A DNA stretch of 23,033 nucleotides from a virus. The stretch spans positions 1 through 23,033 of the IMG/VR virus record IMGVR_UViG_3300010157_000263. One strand, given 5' to 3'. The translations under genes and the position numbers were made by a program. Shown piece by piece: positions 7,825 through 17,366 of this stretch. Position 1 is the stretch's first letter. Each line of letters opens with the position of its first letter. The notes beneath the pieces are model-generated. The model had not been told where the DNA came from, did no database searches, and was given only the letters and a program-made list of their open reading frames with translations.

Positions 7825-8189
7825 GCTGCGTCTGTTGCTGCTAGTTGATTAGCTAAGTCAGACATTATCCTCAGTTCAGCAAAGCTACCATCTACCGGCT
7901 TTGCGAATTGAGCTGTGTGTGCTGACGTTGTGATCACATCACGGTACAGATCGGGATTAAGGCGATCCTCACTGACCTTGGCTAACGATATACACATCAT
8001 GATGATTGATACGTCGTGCGCCGTTACCTCTTTCTCAAGCATTACAGAGGCTATCAGGGATGCCTTCGTAATTGCTGGAACTGGATCACCATTTTTAACA
8101 GCGTTAGCCTCAGCGGTCTTCTGTGTGTGATCAATGAACTGACGCCAGTTCAGCGGGCTACTATAGTTCCGTTTAGCTTTTTCTTCCAT
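7821..8189 (-). CDS. Small helical phage protein, DUF6378-like
   Basis: 122 residues starting MEEKAKRNYSSP. I chose the ATG at 8189 because GGAAAG lies 8 bases upstream; the frame is open further upstream but there overlaps the HNH gene. The segment ITKASLIASVMLEKEVTAHDV, then IIMMCISLAKVSEDRLNPDLYRDV, resembles a small phage helical domain (DUF6378-type) in which a D...MM..LK.AR pattern precedes a conserved Asp/Tyr helix. Function is unknown. It overlaps the HNH gene by 40 bases and is the last gene of the leftward operon. It converges on the rightward virion operon, with the two stop codons sharing a TTAA. Confidence 0.7.
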   Translation of the reverse strand: MEEKAKRNYSSPLNWRQFIDHTQKTAEANAVKNGDPVPAITKASLIASVMLEKEVTAHDVSIIMMCISLAKVSEDRLNPDLYRDVITTSAHTAQFAKPVDGSFAELRIMSDLANQLAATDAA

Positions 8190-8506
8190 TTTGAGTTCTT
8201 TCCATATGGCAGTGGGGTTTTGGATTCTTTTAAACCTAAAGTTGATGACTTCGCTCGTTTCGCTTTCGCTGCTCTGCTGTGATCCTCCTTCGTCTTTTCC
8301 GTAGCACAAGCCTTGCACGTAAGACGTATATTCTCGTCCGTATCCGACCCTCCCAGTTCCAAGGCCCGGACGTGCTCAAAGATAAAATGACCTGTCCTCA
8401 ACTTGACTGAGCAGATCATGCATTTGCCATGTTCTCGTTCCCATATCGCTAACTTTCTTCTTTGCGATAGGTTACCTCGTTTAGTGGTTCCCATATCCTC
8501 AGTCAT
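8150..8506 (-). CDS. HNH endonuclease
   Basis: 118 residues with a clear HNH/zinc-knuckle nuclease core. CMIC (C29, C32) is followed by FIFEHVRALELGGSD with H45 as the first His, then DENIRLTC with N59, and C64-KA-C67, with H76 a candidate final ligand. The two Cys pairs probably bind a structural zinc, while His/Asn/His coordinates the catalytic metal. The tail after about residue 78 is Lys/Arg-rich, suiting DNA contact. In phages such proteins act in DNA packaging, recombination or as homing nucleases. Here the gene lies in the leftward recombination operon rather than beside terminase. The start at 8506 overlaps the upstream gene's stop by 8 bases, suggesting translational coupling. Confidence 0.85.
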   Translation of the reverse strand: MTEDMGTTKRGNLSQRRKLAIWEREHGKCMICSVKLRTGHFIFEHVRALELGGSDTDENIRLTCKACATEKTKEDHSRAAKAKRAKSSTLGLKESKTPLPYGKNSKWKKKLNGTIVAR

Positions 8507-8951
8507 TAAAGGAAAAACCTTTTATTTCCTTAAATTCTTCTCTTGGTATCAAGTAGCAGATTGCTTCGTAATCTCGTGGGTCGTTTCTGTTTCGTTGACC
8601 AGATGGACGAGATTCATATTGATTGTGGAGGATATCAAGGTAACCAAAATAGTCCGGCCATTTAACTACCAAAAACGCTGGCAACTTAGTTTCTTCAGCT
8701 AGTTTCAGGCCGTGGTCTATGTCACTCTTTGTACAGATATAGGTGTCGAAGTCAGTGTATGGCTTGCTCTTGGTTTTAACCTCAATGAAGCCAATGATTT
8801 GACCATTCCTCCGACACTTAAAGTCAAAGATGCTGTAATCACCCATCTTTTCATATTCAAAATTCCACTGGGCGCTCAAGAACTCGATGATTTGATTTTC
8901 TCGATTTAAGTCATGTGGAGTTTGATAGGATATAAATGGTGCATTACTCAT
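8499..8951 (-). CDS. PD-(D/E)XK nuclease-like protein
   Basis: 150 residues. The core motif is visible: an N-terminal helix with an acidic residue (ENQIIEFL, 18-25), then YSIFDFKCRR with D43, a short turn, and GFIEVKT with E57 and K59. This gives the D-x13-E-x-K pattern of PD-(D/E)XK phosphodiesterases. Strand-like LPAFLVVKW and a conserved-looking aspartate in YLDIL follow. It is single-domain, so it resembles VRR-type or resolvase-like phage nucleases rather than a restriction enzyme with a specificity domain. GGGAG about 9 bases upstream supports the start. Its start overlaps the previous gene's stop as ATGA and its stop overlaps the HNH start. A role in processing recombination intermediates or degrading host DNA is inferred from the fold and the neighbouring ERF, Gp157 and HNH genes. 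Confidence 0.65.
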   Translation of the reverse strand: MSNAPFISYQTPHDLNRENQIIEFLSAQWNFEYEKMGDYSIFDFKCRRNGQIIGFIEVKTKSKPYTDFDTYICTKSDIDHGLKLAEETKLPAFLVVKWPDYFGYLDILHNQYESRPSGQRNRNDPRDYEAICYLIPREEFKEIKGFSFND

Positions 8952-9380: not shown

Positions 9381-9698
9381 TTAGTTATCCTCAAGCCAAC
9401 CATTGCCAATAATTGTCTTCTTAGTCGAACCGTTGCGGTCAGTCTTATAAGACAAAACTGTCCACCGCTCAGGCCAATGCTCATCAATTTCCATATATTC
9501 CAATGGACGAAGGATTACCCGACAGAAGTTGTCTGGATCGGTTAAGGGGAGAGCCTCAAGCAAGATATTGATAGTATCTCGCTTGGTGCTAAATCCCTTG
9601 CCAATGACAATACCACGGGCTTCATTCGTGACGGCCTCAGGACGATAAGAGACCGCTTTCCACTCAAATCTAAAACTTGGATCAGAAGGCAATGTCAT
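9381..9698 (-). CDS. Hypothetical protein of the recombination operon
   Basis: 105 residues from the ATG at 9698 (MTLPSDPSFRFEWKAV). That ATG lies inside the last codons of the upstream SSB-like gene, giving a 17-base overlap; the frame is open upstream to 9797 with another ATG at 9740, so the start is uncertain and no strong ribosome-binding site decides it. The sequence has beta-rich segments (RFEWKAVSYRP; CRVILRPLEYMEID; RWTVLSYKT) and ends GNGWLEDN. No family is recognised. Eighty-five bases without a visible gene separate it from the next leftward gene. Confidence 0.6.
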   Translation of the reverse strand: MTLPSDPSFRFEWKAVSYRPEAVTNEARGIVIGKGFSTKRDTINILLEALPLTDPDNFCRVILRPLEYMEIDEHWPERWTVLSYKTDRNGSTKKTIIGNGWLEDN

Positions 9699-9942
9699 CG
9701 TCGAGATCAATTGGCGTGGCGTTCTGTCGTTGTCCCCCATTAGATTTATTGTCTTGATCGGCTTTTTGGAAACTGCATGAGAGAAACTTTTCACCATTAC
9801 GATCTACCTTAATCCACACTGCCAATTTGTAATCTTCACCATCCACTTTAACCGATCCGGTATAGTTTGGATGCTTATCTTGGGTTTTATATTTATTTTT
9901 GAACGCTGATCCGCTCATGTCTTTAACTTCATAATTAGACAT
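9682..9942 (-). CDS. Small ssDNA-binding-like protein with SSB-type acidic tail
   Basis: 86 residues starting MSNYEVKDMSGSAFKN. The start is set by GAAAGGAAC just upstream. The body (residues 10-60) has the pattern G.AFKN.K....HPNYTG.VKV.G..Y.LAVWIK....EKFLSCSFQ, which resembles the small DUF736-type phage/plasmid family and would fit a compact beta barrel. A Gln/Asn/Gly-rich linker (61-77) leads to the C-terminal tip DLDDDIAF. That is nearly the tip of bacterial SSB (DDDIPF in E. coli), the peptide that recruits recombination and repair proteins. Together with the ERF gene directly upstream (8-base overlap), this suggests a phage ssDNA-binding protein or a decoy of the host SSB tail. The domain call is moderate; the tail is directly visible. 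Confidence 0.7.
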   Translation of the reverse strand: MSNYEVKDMSGSAFKNKYKTQDKHPNYTGSVKVDGEDYKLAVWIKVDRNGEKFLSCSFQKADQDNKSNGGQRQNATPIDLDDDIAF

Positions 9943-10639
9943 TTTTAGTTCCTTTCGTTGCATTGATCCGTGCCGTGCAAGCATCGGTCATTTTTGTGTA
10001 CTCATCAGTGTTTGGCACGATTGCCAGTGTAATTCTGTTTTCACTTTCTGATTTCCATGTTGCCCTAACTTCCTTTTCATCAAGGCACATTTCCAGCATT
10101 CCAGTGAAAACACCGACATAGTTATCAACATCCTTAGCCTCTAAAGCACGCTTTGGAAGTTCAATCTTTTTAAGCGGCTGCCTCTTTGGCGCTGGTTTTT
10201 CTACTTCCTGATTCGGTGCTGACTTATCGCCATCCTCTTTCTCAGGATCATCTCCAGTTTCAATCTGGAACAACTTAAACAACAGATATTTGTTGGCCCC
10301 TGTCAGAGCCTTGTAGATACCCTTGTCGCCTACGCTGCCAGATTTAGACTTGTCATTACCGCAACCAACGGCAATGATTTTATCAGGCCAAATCTCGCCC
10401 GATGTGTGAGCCAATGTGTATTCGACGGTGACGGTTGTATTACCGTGCGCGTCGATTGGCGATACGTTTCCGATGCTTGGGATAAGCACCAATCCCTGAT
10501 CAATCATCGCAGGACGAAGTGATTCGAGGAGGGATGATTCGCTGGCATACTTGTAGCCGTGGAACTTGTTTTCGGAAGATTTCTGAACGTAGGAGACGGA
10601 TTTCATCACCTCATTCAATGCCTTGATAATGTTTTTCAT
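9935..10639 (-). CDS. erf: ERF-family single-strand annealing protein
   Basis: 234 residues. The N-terminal part matches ERF recombinases: MKNIIKALNEVMKSVSYVQK, then HGYKYASESSLLESLRPAMIDQGL (about 27-50). A strand pair (TTVTVEYTLAHTSGE) follows, then GCGNDKSKSGSVGDKGIYKAL and the ANKYLLFKLFQIETGDDPE segment ending near 135. A Pro/Lys/Glu linker at 136-165 leads to a less conserved helical C-terminal domain. ERF proteins bind ssDNA as rings and anneal complementary strands, promoting phage recombination and genome circularisation. The family assignment comes from motif recognition and operon context (Gp157-like gene 2 bases upstream, SSB-like gene overlapping downstream). AAGGTAACG precedes the ATG. 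Confidence 0.85.
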   Translation of the reverse strand: MKNIIKALNEVMKSVSYVQKSSENKFHGYKYASESSLLESLRPAMIDQGLVLIPSIGNVSPIDAHGNTTVTVEYTLAHTSGEIWPDKIIAVGCGNDKSKSGSVGDKGIYKALTGANKYLLFKLFQIETGDDPEKEDGDKSAPNQEVEKPAPKRQPLKKIELPKRALEAKDVDNYVGVFTGMLEMCLDEKEVRATWKSESENRITLAIVPNTDEYTKMTDACTARINATKGTKNV

Positions 10640-10641
10640 CG

Positions 10642-11193
10642 TTACCTTACCGTTAATGTTTCGCCGCCATTTGACAGCGTTGCGCCGGGAACGTCTTCGC
10701 CAGCCTTTAGCTTTTCACCAATCAACGTCTTGTTTGGTTCAACTTTGATACGCATAAATTCATCGGGGATCAACCCCTCATCCAAAATTTGTACCGACAG
10801 AGGCTTCTGGCTCAGCGAAACGGTTCCATTGGCGGCCTTAACGGTACGCATATCGGCCATCTCCAACATGCGGCGGAGCAAGGTACGGATCAAATTAACG
10901 CGAACGGTATGTTTCGAAATTCGGTCATCCATACGCGCCCGCGATATTTTAATACCTTCTATATAACCTTCTGTAATAGATAGTTCTAATAAACATTTAT
11001 TAATAATATCCATATAGTCAGTAGAACCTTCTAAGATATCTGACTTAAAAGTATCATCATTCTTTAACTCAGGATTATTAATATATATGTTAGCCAGAAG
11101 GTTAGTAATTTCATGTTCTATAACTGGCATAGCTAATCTAAGTTTATGCAACTCAGTGGCATCCGACTGTGCGCCATGTGGAAACTGTTTCAT
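10642..11193 (-). CDS. Siphovirus Gp157-like protein
   Basis: 183 residues, first gene of the leftward operon. The N-terminal two thirds is a long helical/coiled-coil region (ITNLLANIYINN; YMDIINKCLLELSITEGYIEGIKISRARMDDRI; LIRTLLRRMLEMADMRTVKAANG). It is followed by the typical Gp157 C-terminal motif: TVSLSQKPLSVQILDEGLIPDEFMRI, then KTLIGEKLKAGEDVPGATL near the end. Proteins of this family sit next to ERF or other recombinases in many phages; some reports link them to phage resistance phenotypes, but the biochemical role is not settled. The ATG is preceded by AAGGGTG. A leftward promoter candidate lies in the divergent region 11194-11259. Between roughly 10950 and 11130 the DNA is noticeably AT-richer than the rest of the gene. 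Confidence 0.8.
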   Translation of the reverse strand: MKQFPHGAQSDATELHKLRLAMPVIEHEITNLLANIYINNPELKNDDTFKSDILEGSTDYMDIINKCLLELSITEGYIEGIKISRARMDDRISKHTVRVNLIRTLLRRMLEMADMRTVKAANGTVSLSQKPLSVQILDEGLIPDEFMRIKVEPNKTLIGEKLKAGEDVPGATLSNGGETLTVR

Positions 11194-11481: not shown

Positions 11482-11663
11482 GAATGTTTCGAAAGGAACA
11501 CTTTGTCACACTTGACGATTTGTCTTTTCAAACTGGAATTTCGATGGCATCTTTGTCTCGAATTGAACGATATAAACAATACCCGCTAATCAGTGCAGCA
11601 AAGAAAATCATTGCAGCATCAGGGGGTTATCTGAAACCGGAAGATTTTTTTGGTGAAAAGTAA
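11478..11663 (+). CDS. Small XRE/Cro-like HTH regulator
   Basis: 61 residues from the ATG at 11478 (MRMFRKEHFVTLDDL), which forms an ATGA overlap with the preceding stop. In-frame ATGs at 11397 and 11388 lie behind GGAG and would add about 27-30 residues, so the start is uncertain. The HTH is clear: TLDDLSFQTGISMASLSRIERYKQYP is the helix 2-turn-helix 3 pattern of the Cro/C1 family, followed by a helix (LISAAKKIIAASGG) and the ending DFFGEK. It probably binds DNA as a dimer; the inverted repeat at 11235-11249 is a reasonable candidate site. It ends in a TAATG overlap with the RusA gene. No integrase is visible here, so this need not be a lysogeny repressor; early-gene timing is equally possible. 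Confidence 0.75.
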   Translation: MRMFRKEHFVTLDDLSFQTGISMASLSRIERYKQYPLISAAKKIIAASGGYLKPEDFFGEK

Positions 11664-12037
11664 TGATACAATTAACTCTTCCACTGGCTCCGTCAGCTAA
11701 CGCTCTTTGGCGCATAACTGGCTCCAGAATGTACAAGACGAAGCTCTACAAAGACTGGCTTGAAGAGGCTGGTTGGATGGTAAAACAACAGACTAAGCAG
11801 ACAATTGATGGCGAGTATGCCCTTCACATTAGGGCGAGAAAAACCAACAAACGTCGTGATTTGGATAATATCTTGAAGGCCACCAGTGACCTACTTGTTA
11901 AGCTCCACATCGTAGAAGACGACTCGCAGTGCATGGCTTTGGCTGCTGAGTGGGCCAAAGAATCATCAGAGCCGATGGTTGTAACGATTTACGCAATGGG
12001 CGAGGCAGATGACACAGGACTTCCGAAACTACAATGA
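11663..12037 (+). CDS. rusA: RusA-like Holliday junction resolvase
   Basis: 124 residues, the usual RusA length. The N-terminus has the family pattern PLAPSANALWRI...MYKTKLYKDW, and the core motif is RRDLDNILKATSDLLVKLHIVEDDSQ. D66 and D68 in RRDLDN and the acidic cluster E85-D86-D87 supply the metal-binding carboxylates expected for this Mg-dependent nuclease; K72 in the LK that follows is also typical. RusA dimers cut four-way junctions symmetrically, resolving recombination or replication intermediates before packaging. It starts in a TAATG overlap with the regulator gene and overlaps the next gene by 29 bases, so it belongs to the replication operon rather than the leftward recombination operon. 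Confidence 0.9.
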   Translation: MIQLTLPLAPSANALWRITGSRMYKTKLYKDWLEEAGWMVKQQTKQTIDGEYALHIRARKTNKRRDLDNILKATSDLLVKLHIVEDDSQCMALAAEWAKESSEPMVVTIYAMGEADDTGLPKLQ

Positions 12038-12431
12038 ATTACGTGCACATTACTTGGCAGTTAGAAAAAGATTGGGCGGACTTGGCAAGTCAGCGGGACT
12101 TGTCCCAATTAGGCCACCAGAAGTTCAAAAGGTCGTATTTTCCCGTGTTGAGGAAGCCGTTGAAGTTGTGTTCAAGGTGGACCATATCCCCAATAACAAT
12201 TTCTCAAAGCTACTGATTAAAATTGCTCAAAAACATAGTGTCGATCCTAACTCTCTAATCGTCCCGAATCATAAACCCGAAGTTGTCAAAATTCGTCGTG
12301 AAGTTGCCTACTTTGCCGTTAAAGATTTGAAATACTCAGCTAGCCAAATTGGTCGATGGCTGCAACGTGATCACAAAACAATCCTTTACGACGTTAAATG
12401 TTACGAGAGAGACAATGCACAAACTGCGTGA
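12009..12431 (+). CDS. DnaA domain IV-like replication protein
   Basis: 140 residues. The C-terminal part (about 67-135) reads like the DNA-binding domain IV of bacterial DnaA: LLIKIAQKHSVDPNSLIV, then VVKIRREVAYFAVKDLKYSASQIGRWL and the signature-type RDHKTILYDVK. In DnaA this DHKTV..A helix inserts into the 9-bp DnaA box. The protein has no AAA+ domain, and the N-terminal 65 residues are unlike DnaA. It may recognise DnaA-box-like sites at a phage origin or promoters, or compete with host DnaA. It overlaps RusA by 29 bases upstream and the helicase by 17 bases downstream, fitting a role in replication initiation. Fold confidence is good; function is inference. Confidence 0.8.
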   Translation: MTQDFRNYNELRAHYLAVRKRLGGLGKSAGLVPIRPPEVQKVVFSRVEEAVEVVFKVDHIPNNNFSKLLIKIAQKHSVDPNSLIVPNHKPEVVKIRREVAYFAVKDLKYSASQIGRWLQRDHKTILYDVKCYERDNAQTA

Positions 12432-15905: not shown

Positions 15906-16050
15906 AAAACGTAAACAAGTTTCATCGCTTGGTGGAAAAACAGGTAATAGAAACAAGTTCACATCTGAAACAGCATCTGCTGGCGGTAAAATTGGCGGTA
16001 AAGCAAAGAACCCTAATAAGGGTTTTGGAACAACAAAGAAAAACAAATGA
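15862..16050 (+). CDS. Small basic KGG-motif-like protein
   Basis: 62 residues (MELKNKTGFALLSAEKRKQV), with AAAGGT upstream as the ribosome-binding site. It has GFALLSAEKRKQVSSLGGKTGN, then F.SE.AS.AGGKIGGKAK and a Lys/Asn/Gly-rich tail. The repeated LGGK/IGGK units match the KGG motif of small stress-type proteins and of short phage proteins of the form GFA..SPEKR..IAS.GGK.....F. It is highly basic and low-complexity, so nucleic-acid binding is plausible but unproven. Its stop overlaps the ATG of the cytosine methyltransferase (ATGA), so the two are probably translated together. Confidence 0.7.
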   Translation: MELKNKTGFALLSAEKRKQVSSLGGKTGNRNKFTSETASAGGKIGGKAKNPNKGFGTTKKNK

Positions 16051-17366
16051 AATATTTATCAGTTTGTTCTGGCATTGAAGCCGCCACCGTTGCTTGGCAC
16101 TCATTAGGTTGGGAACCATTAGCATTCAGTGAGATTGAACCATTTCCGCGTAAGATGTTAACCCACCACTATCCAGATGTACCTCTACATGGTGACTTTA
16201 CCGTTTTGCGTGAACAAGATTGGATAAAAGACGCTGACATCTTAGTTGGTGGCACACCTTGCCAAGCCTTCTCTGTGGCAGGGTTACGCAACAGCCTTGA
16301 TGATGACCGTGGTAACTTGACCCTAGAATTTGTAAGGCTTGCAGATGCAATTGACGATCTTCGATCTGATGGAACAGTCATCGTATGGGAAAACGTCCCC
16401 GGAGTGCTCTCCGTTAAGGACAACGCCTTCGGATGCTTCCTTGGTGCCCTTGTGGGAAACGATGAACCCCTCATCCCGACAGGGGGCAAATGGACAAACT
16501 CAGGTATGGTTATGGGACCGAAAAGACGTGCGGCGTGGCGAGTTCTCGACGCTCAATACTTTGGAGTGGCCCAACGACGCCGTCGTCTGTTCGTTGTCGC
16601 AAGTGCTAGAGATGGGTTTGATCCCGCAGAAGTTCTTTTTGAGCGCGAAGGCTTGCGAAGGGATACTCCGCCGTGCAGAGAAAAGGGGCAAAACACTGCC
16701 AAGTGCCTTACGACAGGCGTTGGTCAACGTTACGACCCAGAAACAGAAACCTTGCCCGTAGTTACAAATTCAAATGTGTCTGGAACATTAACATCTAATA
16801 CGGGCGGTTTAACTCGTCCGGCTGGCAATGCGAATGAGTTAGATTTTTGTGTTGCACAACCGATTCCGTTTGGTGTTGGTGAAAATCCTAATCTTGGACA
16901 TTGTTTACGTTCTGGTGCATCAAAAGCCGATAAGCATGAAAGCACAACGTATATAGCGCAACCCCTGCCTTTTGATACTACTCAGATTACAAGTCCTTAT
17001 AATTTTAGTAACCCCAAAGCCGGTGATCCATGTCACCCTTTATCGGCTGGAGCGCACATTCCTGCTATAGTACAGCCAATAGCATACGCATCTTCTGATG
17101 GAATTGTTAGGCCATTAGGAGAAGTAATGGCTACATTGGATTCTGCGGGAGAAACTCGCGGAACTAATCAACAGCGTTTTATTCAACAAGAAATGGCTGT
17201 TCGACGCCTGACGCCACGCGAATGTGAAAGGCTTCAAGGATTTCCAGATGGTTACACTGATATTCACGGTGCATCAGACACACCCAGATACAAATCATTA
17301 GGAAATTCAATGGCTGTGCCAGTGATGGCATGGATTGGAAAAAGAATAAAACATGAGTTGACATGA
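16047..17366 (+). CDS. dcm: DNA (cytosine-5)-methyltransferase
   Basis: 439 residues, full-length for a phage C5 methyltransferase. Motif I is YLSVCSGIEAATVAW. The catalytic PCQ lies in GGTPCQAFSVAG with C72; motif VI ENV is at 116-118 and motif VIII QRRRR at 176-180. A variable target-recognition region spans about 190-385. The C-terminal motifs IX/X are RRLTPRECERLQGFPDGY and YKSLGNSMAVP. It transfers methyl from SAM to C5 of cytosine in a sequence set by the variable region; with no cognate nuclease visible, protection from host restriction is the likely role. It starts by ATGA overlap with the KGG gene. The region coding residues 100-238 also contains a long ORF in another frame (16345-16761). 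Its last codons run into cassette 3. Confidence 0.93.
   Translation: MKYLSVCSGIEAATVAWHSLGWEPLAFSEIEPFPRKMLTHHYPDVPLHGDFTVLREQDWIKDADILVGGTPCQAFSVAGLRNSLDDDRGNLTLEFVRLADAIDDLRSDGTVIVWENVPGVLSVKDNAFGCFLGALVGNDEPLIPTGGKWTNSGMVMGPKRRAAWRVLDAQYFGVAQRRRRLFVVASARDGFDPAEVLFEREGLRRDTPPCREKGQNTAKCLTTGVGQRYDPETETLPVVTNSNVSGTLTSNTGGLTRPAGNANELDFCVAQPIPFGVGENPNLGHCLRSGASKADKHESTTYIAQPLPFDTTQITSPYNFSNPKAGDPCHPLSAGAHIPAIVQPIAYASSDGIVRPLGEVMATLDSAGETRGTNQQRFIQQEMAVRRLTPRECERLQGFPDGYTDIHGASDTPRYKSLGNSMAVPVMAWIGKRIKHELT
16345..16761 (+). CDS. Embedded ORF in alternate frame of the cytosine methyltransferase gene
   Basis: 138 codons from ATG 16345 (MQLTIFDLMEQSSYGKTSPE), wholly inside the methyltransferase gene in a different frame. 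AAGG at 16334-16337, seven bases before the ATG, is a well-placed ribosome-binding site. The predicted protein has a coherent, non-random look: a TIFDLM.QSSYGKTSPE start, RRGEFSTLN, LEWPNDAVVCSLSQVLEMG, KFFLSAKACEGILRRAEKRGKTLPSALRQAL. I recall phage and prophage proteins with the same motifs (WPNDA.VCSLS.VLE and FFLSAKAC.GILRRAEKRGK) annotated as hypothetical, apparently overlapping cytosine methyltransferases. It may be a real overprinted gene. The alternative is that strong conservation of methyltransferase motifs (VAQRRRRLFVV) produces a conserved shadow. Confidence 0.5.
   Translation: MQLTIFDLMEQSSYGKTSPECSPLRTTPSDASLVPLWETMNPSSRQGANGQTQVWLWDRKDVRRGEFSTLNTLEWPNDAVVCSLSQVLEMGLIPQKFFLSAKACEGILRRAEKRGKTLPSALRQALVNVTTQKQKPCP

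Follow-up and report, generated by a model that had tools for sequence, protein, structure and literature searches.

The 86-aa protein examined here is encoded in a virus record of 23,033 bases, the whole of which was analysed (hereafter the window), and by its sequence it is a member of a widespread and already catalogued family of phage single-stranded DNA (ssDNA)-binding proteins (SSBs), from which we infer that it binds ssDNA. Most probably it serves as the phage's own SSB within a run of recombination genes, its body coating ssDNA and its SSB-like C-terminal tip docking the ERF annealase encoded next to it. The basis at hand for this reading is family membership, the conservation of the tip, a frequent ERF neighbourhood and a distant kinship of the body with DUF736, together with the finding of no canonical SSB in the records searched. 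As a family member the protein is ordinary, though by sequence its body is not that of a recognisable SSB and the tip carries an unusual alanine. The analysis mostly confirms an already catalogued phage SSB family; what deserves further work is the kinship with DUF736 and the IAF ending of the tip. The main guess of an earlier, first-pass annotation of this DNA, namely that a phage protein encoded beside an annealase binds ssDNA and recruits partners by its tip, is probably correct and is already the family's catalogue name: the PHROG name, the conserved tip and the frequent ERF neighbourhood all speak for it.

Gene and neighbourhood in the window

Translation of positions 9682-9942 on the minus strand gives a protein that runs from MSNYEV to PIDLDDDIAF (C-terminus QRQNATPIDLDDDIAF*), which bears out the first-pass description of an end in DLDDDIAF with the last six residues at 9685-9702, of a linker before the tip (residues 64-80, DNKSNGGQRQNATPIDL) in which Gln, Asn and Gly are abundant, and of ERF as the neighbour (Table 1). 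The closeness of the tip to the DDDIPF of SSB was also correctly seen, the window differing by an alanine where SSB has its penultimate proline. The end of the ERF gene overlaps the start of the 86-aa gene by 8 nt (9935-9942), and the probable ATG of the next gene downstream (9696-9698) is embedded in the codons of the tip itself; a second gene without assigned function lies on the minus strand between that downstream gene and the PDDEXK nuclease. Judged by their predicted products, the Gp157/Gam-like gene, the ERF gene, the 86-aa gene and the nucleases, all on one strand, read as a recombination gene run.

Elsewhere in the window, positions 16047-17366 encode a C-5 cytosine methylase (PF00145, E 4e-41), and these positions also hold the only part of the window with a near match (MW202711, 78.8%) among the phages of the collection. 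Adjoining the RusA gene and a DEAD/ResIII helicase is a gene at 12009-12431 for a small protein with a DnaA C-terminal-like helix-turn-helix, scoring just below the Pfam cut-off (29 against 31.5 bits).

Table 1. Features of the 86-aa gene and of the genes around it in the window
Feature	Position	Strand	Evidence
Gene of the phage ssDNA-binding-protein family, 86 aa	9682..9942	-	stop 9682-9684; phrog_18154 and phrog_7364 profile matches
Body, residues 1-63	9754..9942	-	four predicted strands and a short helix; distant DUF736 relative by sequence
Gln/Asn/Gly-rich linker, residues 64-80, predicted disordered	9703..9753	-	low pLDDT, high column entropy
SSB-like C-terminal tip DDDIAF, last six residues	9685..9702	-	translation, cluster tip counts, column entropy
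ERF single-strand annealing protein, immediately upstream	9935..10639	-	Pfam PF04404 E 2.8e-21; phrog_155 E 6.1e-32
Gp157 / Mu Gam-like end-protection protein, upstream of the ERF gene	10642..11193	-	PF05565 E 2.1e-20; phrog_253 E 1.4e-20
Downstream gene (MTLPSD...), likely ATG 9696-9698	9381..9698	-	without Pfam match; PHROG best E 0.39
PDDEXK-type nuclease, same gene run	8499..8951	-	PF24579 E 1.6e-24
HNH endonuclease, same gene run	8150..8506	-	PF14279 E 9.7e-7; phrog_333 E 1.5e-13
RusA-like Holliday-junction resolvase, opposite strand	11663..12037	+	PF05866 E 1.4e-12

Family membership and identity as an SSB

The two PHROG families matched by the protein, phrog_18154 (E 3.6e-11, residues 9-65) and phrog_7364 (E 4.6e-11, residues 7-75), both carry the name 'single strand DNA binding protein', and all 19 members of set A1 match phrog_18154/phrog_7364; searches of Pfam and NCBIfam gave no match for the 86-aa protein. 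Relatives were recovered by tblastn from 52 phage records of the phage collection, many of them annotated as SSB, and 20 of these records, hand-chosen at about one per group, were fetched. The PHROG name is inferred in its turn, in part perhaps from the tip: the VpV262 record describes its family member as similar to the SSB 'C-terminus'. No ssDNA-binding experiment on the family turned up among the open-licence PMC papers listed. It also counts somewhat against an SSB role that the body is no more than mildly basic, with 11 K/R against 9 D/E.

Identity as a canonical SSB was considered and rejected, given that the protein has no Pfam match, that PF00436 was not found in the window and that the family scores 0.1% when compared by hhalign with 11 domains of canonical SSBs. 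A profile search for PF00436 likewise returned nothing in any of 35 records, the window included, these being mostly longer contigs and possibly fragments, and no solved relative was found by sequence. Several other similarities were set aside as chance matches, namely one to a neuraminidase, one to the E. coli SSB tail (E 0.094) along with myosin chains ending in the same tail, and one to a toxin B subunit (E = 1), to whose Pfam family a single family member also matched.

Genomic context in relatives and proposed function

Of 50 records of relatives, a hand-chosen sample whose members are not independent (L001-L004 are close kin) and whose contigs are possibly fragments, 23 proved to contain ERF. 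In 20 of these 23 records ERF lies upstream on the same strand at a distance of up to 1.7 kb, and in 16 of them no more than 300 nt separate the family member from the end of the ERF domain; the remaining three have ERF at a distant place. Coupling to an annealase is not universal, since a Rad52-type annealase occurs in two of the 27 records without ERF and RecT in none of the 27, which leaves 25 of the 50 without ERF or Rad52. An annotated DNA polymerase gene adjoins the family member in nine of the 20 fetched phages, and in four of the nine the member sits between the polymerase gene and a gene for adenylosuccinate synthetase of the type that serves 2-aminoadenine DNA; gene order differs in phage Bm1, where a tRNA gene stands between the family member and the polymerase. 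Among the closer phages the member follows an annealase, which is ERF in Mae-JY35 and ctfne034 and a Sak-like protein, directly upstream, in C72C1.

In the mechanism that we favour, the overlapping ERF and SSB genes would be translated, the small beta body, probably as a dimer, would coat ssDNA, and the flexible linker would hold out the SSB-like tip for docking to partner proteins, first of all ERF. By analogy with the SSB-Sak4 pair of HK620, contact between tip and ERF may then load ERF, or stimulate annealing, on the coated ssDNA. According to PMC5928155, the last six residues of the HK620 SSB (NDYPPF) are needed both for the binding of Sak4 to coated ssDNA and for the stimulation of Sak4 annealing, and reports cited in PMC10711431 describe recognition of the last residues of SSB by RecT-type annealases. 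Relatives within polymerase gene clusters would probably render the same service to the phage replisome. ERF and its own SSB would constitute an annealase-SSB pair that is amenable to Sak4-type testing.

Conservation of the SSB-like tip

The matches listed comprise 157 loci, 156 of them from IMG/VR (one scan of which contributed its best 80 matches) and one from a bacterial genome, and reduce to 115 non-identical proteins, which form 57 clusters when grouped at 80% identity. Search seeds had included tip peptides; 56 of the 57 clusters match in the body, carrying the body seed, and the one cluster matched by its tail only (L177, whose end is shared by L178 and L179) was dropped before tips were counted. 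A further 80 loci, the best 80 of one scan, of which 50 were read and were mostly of one tip type, were also kept out of the count. Conservation of the tip in homologues, as the first-pass reading implied, is present: among the matches listed, 48 of the 56 cluster representatives close with PF, in 43 cases as [ILVM]PF, with F at the last position in 50 and P at the position before it in 49. Column entropy, which is 3.3-3.8 bits over positions -20 to -7, drops to 0.7-0.8 bits at these last two positions. A comparison set from 57 of the loci, made up of 472 other ORFs of 100 aa or longer that were called mechanically on both strands and are not all genes, contains a single PF end and no acidic [ILVM]PF tip. 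The conserved PF, the dip in entropy at the very end and the near-absence of such ends from the other ORFs together argue that the tip is selected and does not arise by chance. The eight clusters without a PF end are the window's own (IAF), those ending in IPW, IPF plus one residue, VPW plus five residues, IPF plus 11 residues and KKTF, and two in which no tip was found in the frame read.

Each of the 20 family members from the fetched phage records has a PF end, which takes the form [ILV]PF in 17. In some gammaproteobacterial phage members the tail is identical to that of E. coli SSB, the VP2 member and the E. coli SSB chain 1eqq both ending NEPPMDFDDDIPF. Such tails, and the nine of 20 fetched members that adjoin an annotated polymerase gene, would suit an SSB for replication that directs its tip chiefly to the partners of host SSB (polymerase III chi, PriA, RecO, RecQ, exonuclease I), the phage protein acting as a replacement of, or a competitor for, host SSB. 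For the window we hold this to be possible but somewhat doubtful, because its gene sits in a recombination run and its tip departs from the E. coli sequence at a residue that matters to partners there.

The alanine variant of the tip

Near relatives of the window protein are divided at this residue, L001 (an identical protein) and L002 ending in IAF, and L003 and L004 in IPF. In E. coli the ssb-113 mutation, which exchanges proline for serine at the same position (SSB113), greatly lowers affinity for partner proteins (PMC10164576). Because the window's alanine occupies the ssb-113 position, recruitment of host partners is less certain for the window than for its relatives with E. coli tails, and by analogy with SSB113 such recruitment by the IAF tip is doubtful.

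The variant was followed through a scan of IMG/VR for DDDIAF directly before a stop codon, a pattern that, like the corresponding one for DDDIPF, covered TAA and TGA stops but not TAG. It returned 85 stretches, with 80 reading frames read and five shorter than 30 aa; DDDIPF-stop occurs in at least 120 stretches of phage contigs. Frames ending in DDDIAF include six hand-picked SSB-like proteins, all six of which match PF00436, as well as a DUF669 SSB and two other PHROG SSBs. They also include a second group related to the family (L306, L347, L356 and L366; 42 bits by hmmsearch, with E 3e-13 to 4e-13 among fewer than 80 proteins), of which L306 gave no match in Pfam, in PHROG or in the phage collection; others of the 80 are unrelated proteins. 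Bacterial genomes were sampled from the phylum of Herminiimonas (L080), which we take to be Pseudomonadota. Within 398 genomes of this one phylum, which may not be the phylum of the contigs' hosts, DDDIAF-stop is found in none and DDDIPF-stop in 201, counted as pattern hits whether in SSB genes or not. Since DDDIAF stands on phage SSBs and in none of the 398 sampled bacterial genomes, the IAF tip looks like a working variant that is seen mainly on the phage side; the same zero in the sampled phylum speaks against a tip directed chiefly at the host. This natural Pro-to-Ala variant could show how phages tune the proteins recruited by an SSB.

Two other accounts of the alanine fared poorly. That it marks a decaying tip is weakened by the presence of DDDIAF at the ends of canonical, DUF669 and PHROG SSBs and of the second related group. 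That the start codon of the downstream gene forces the tip is not supported, L004 having the same ATG with an IPF end, and L003 an IPF end (tip DDHIPF) with the downstream ATG lost.

The scan also brought up DDDIAF on proteins of other kinds. A RecT-like annealing protein (L301:1413-2420, minus strand; phrog_561 E 4e-48) has the end EPGEDDDIAF, so that here an annealase carries the SSB-like tip, and a large conserved phage protein of up to 776 aa has the same last six residues (L323, L310, L313, L336 and others). Small phage proteins end in WDDDIAF or MDDDIAF (L300, L305, L321, L322, L337, L373) or, within PHROG families without known function, in DDDIAF (L307 in phrog_29348, L325 in phrog_18187); going by their ends, these eight small proteins are possible unrecognised ssDNA-binding or docking proteins.

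The body: predicted fold and kinship with DUF736

AlphaFold2 places strands in the window protein at residues 9-15, 27-33, 36-46 and 52-60, followed by a helix at 61-65, with good local confidence over residues 11-60 (block means 88-95) and a disordered tail in which pLDDT is below 50 at residues 68-77. Within set A3, P25 and G29 of the body are invariant and N16, G35, W43 and G50 nearly so. VP2-type Vibrio phage members carry two copies of the body before a single tip (L009:2297-2770 / L218:2501-2974), and the model of one such natural two-body member, L218, has eight strands (pTM 0.62); with this tandem arrangement as the guide, the single-body protein would probably form a dimer with an eight-stranded arrangement. 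The locus L185, from a bacterial genome, also reads as two body copies, without a PF end.

The OB fold envisaged in the first-pass annotation found no support in the models, which give four strands per body and no convincing OB match, though it is still a possible fold for the body. Foldseek searches of the PDB gave a best E of 0.31 for the window protein and of 0.029, to a designed barrel, for the tandem relative, with SSB chains appearing for the window-protein model at E of 1.4 or above only. VIA-align, in which Z below 8 may mean a common arrangement only, gave Z up to 4.2 for the window model, with Pur-alpha, a T5 PC4 homologue and PC4 mixed among unrelated beta proteins, and Z up to 7.4 for the tandem model, with designed and avidin-like barrels; at such scores a PC4-like fold is a passing thought. 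Across the two models and both programs no confident OB or other ssDNA-binding fold emerged. A library of viral structures returned relatives, one of them an SSB from a Vibrio phage and another a DUF736 protein from a phage.

A DUF736-type body, which the first-pass annotation had also suggested, holds as a distant homology of the core (hhalign 94-95%) and fails as a direct assignment, for the window protein itself matches no Pfam family and falls short of the curated 22.1-bit cut-off of DUF736 (PF05284). In Pfam, DUF736 weakly matches 18 of 55 family members at E of 0.1 or below (best E 0.0016). In a search of 299 genomes the family profile produced six hits, of which three have E between 3.5e-4 and 9.2e-4: L186 and L187, both also above the DUF736 cut-off of Pfam, and L188, which shares 72-75% identity with three proteins that exceed it. 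Aligned by hhalign with 26 DUF736 sequences (set A4), the family scores 95.5% (P 1.3e-8, 49 columns), and with 24 of these, minus the two found by the family's own profile, 94.4% (P 8.9e-8); as controls, the family scores 0.1% against the 11 canonical SSB domains and DUF736 0.7% against SSB. In view of these contrasting scores the body is placed with DUF736, as a distant relative by profile comparison, and not with canonical SSB. The window protein can also be aligned, through residue 86, with a plasmid protein that bears a DUF736 annotation (E 6e-3). Twenty-five of the 26 DUF736 proteins are without an SSB-like end, the exception being L211:1432-1836 (minus strand), a DUF736 protein of 134 aa from a bacterial genome that scores 64.7 bits against the cut-off of 22.1 and whose Gln/Asn-rich tail ends in QNSDDIPY; by sequence it is a natural bridge between DUF736 and the phage SSB family.

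The DUF736 link offers a possible function for DUF736, and a bolder synthesis can be built on it. The phage family would be a non-OB SSB, four-stranded and pairing to eight, that shares its ancestry with DUF736 through the L211 bridge, and DDDIAF would be a phage-private tip that keeps ERF and sheds host partners. Taken jointly these propositions are unlikely to hold; if they did, the DUF736 proteins of bacterial mobile elements would become candidate ssDNA-handling proteins.

The same kinship can be turned against an SSB role, the protein then being of DUF736 type with some other role, such as scaffolding protein-protein contacts in mobile elements, and using an SSB tip to get itself recruited. 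The hhalign scores, with and without the sequences drawn from the family's own profile, the SDDIPY end of L211 and the occurrence of DUF736 genes on all the Mesorhizobium conjugative elements compared (PMC8627217) would accord with it. We rate it as improbable, for the PHROG annotation and the polymerase and annealase neighbourhoods fit an SSB, and DUF736 may itself bind ssDNA as a candidate activity. There is little support for a decoy or inhibitor that fills the SSB-docking pockets of the host and is no working SSB, which is very improbable even though the protein is small and the tip peptide alone binds E. coli RecG (PMC10164576), because the body is conserved beyond the need of a mere carrier, many members keep annealase or polymerase neighbours and canonical SSB appears in none of the 35 records.

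Comparison with known systems

Read as the phage's own SSB beside ERF, the window protein can be set against several known systems. Enc34 ORF6, a T7 gp2.5-type SSB (DUF2815), is likewise a phage SSB with an acidic C-terminus, and PMC5686142 describes how this formerly unknown family was proved to be SSB by structure and gel shift; it differs in its OB fold and long acidic tail, and the type is absent from the matches listed for the window protein. Bacterial SSB (PF00436, E. coli) has the linker and the acidic, Phe-ended tip in common with the window protein, whose body of four predicted strands, within 86 aa, is unrelated to it by sequence. With DUF736 the window protein shares a distantly homologous core, some 50 residues long (P-[DN]-[FY] ... 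W ... G ... Y/F-x-S), and, in L211, an SSB-like tip; the DUF736 comparison sequences, which were drawn from bacterial genomes, otherwise end without such a tip, and they are longer than the common core, which spans columns 28-77 of the 103 in the profile. The HK620 SSB is, like the window protein, a phage SSB with an SSB-like tip encoded beside an annealase, and its tip is needed for annealase stimulation there; its body is DUF669 and its partner Sak4 (PMC5928155), where the window has ERF. Nearest of all by body, linker and tip are the phrog_18154 and phrog_7364 SSBs of the Vibrio phages VP2 and VpV262 and of Acinetobacter and Klebsiella phages, from which the window differs in that its gene follows ERF and has no polymerase neighbour, and in that its protein ends in IAF instead of IPF, LPF or VPF.
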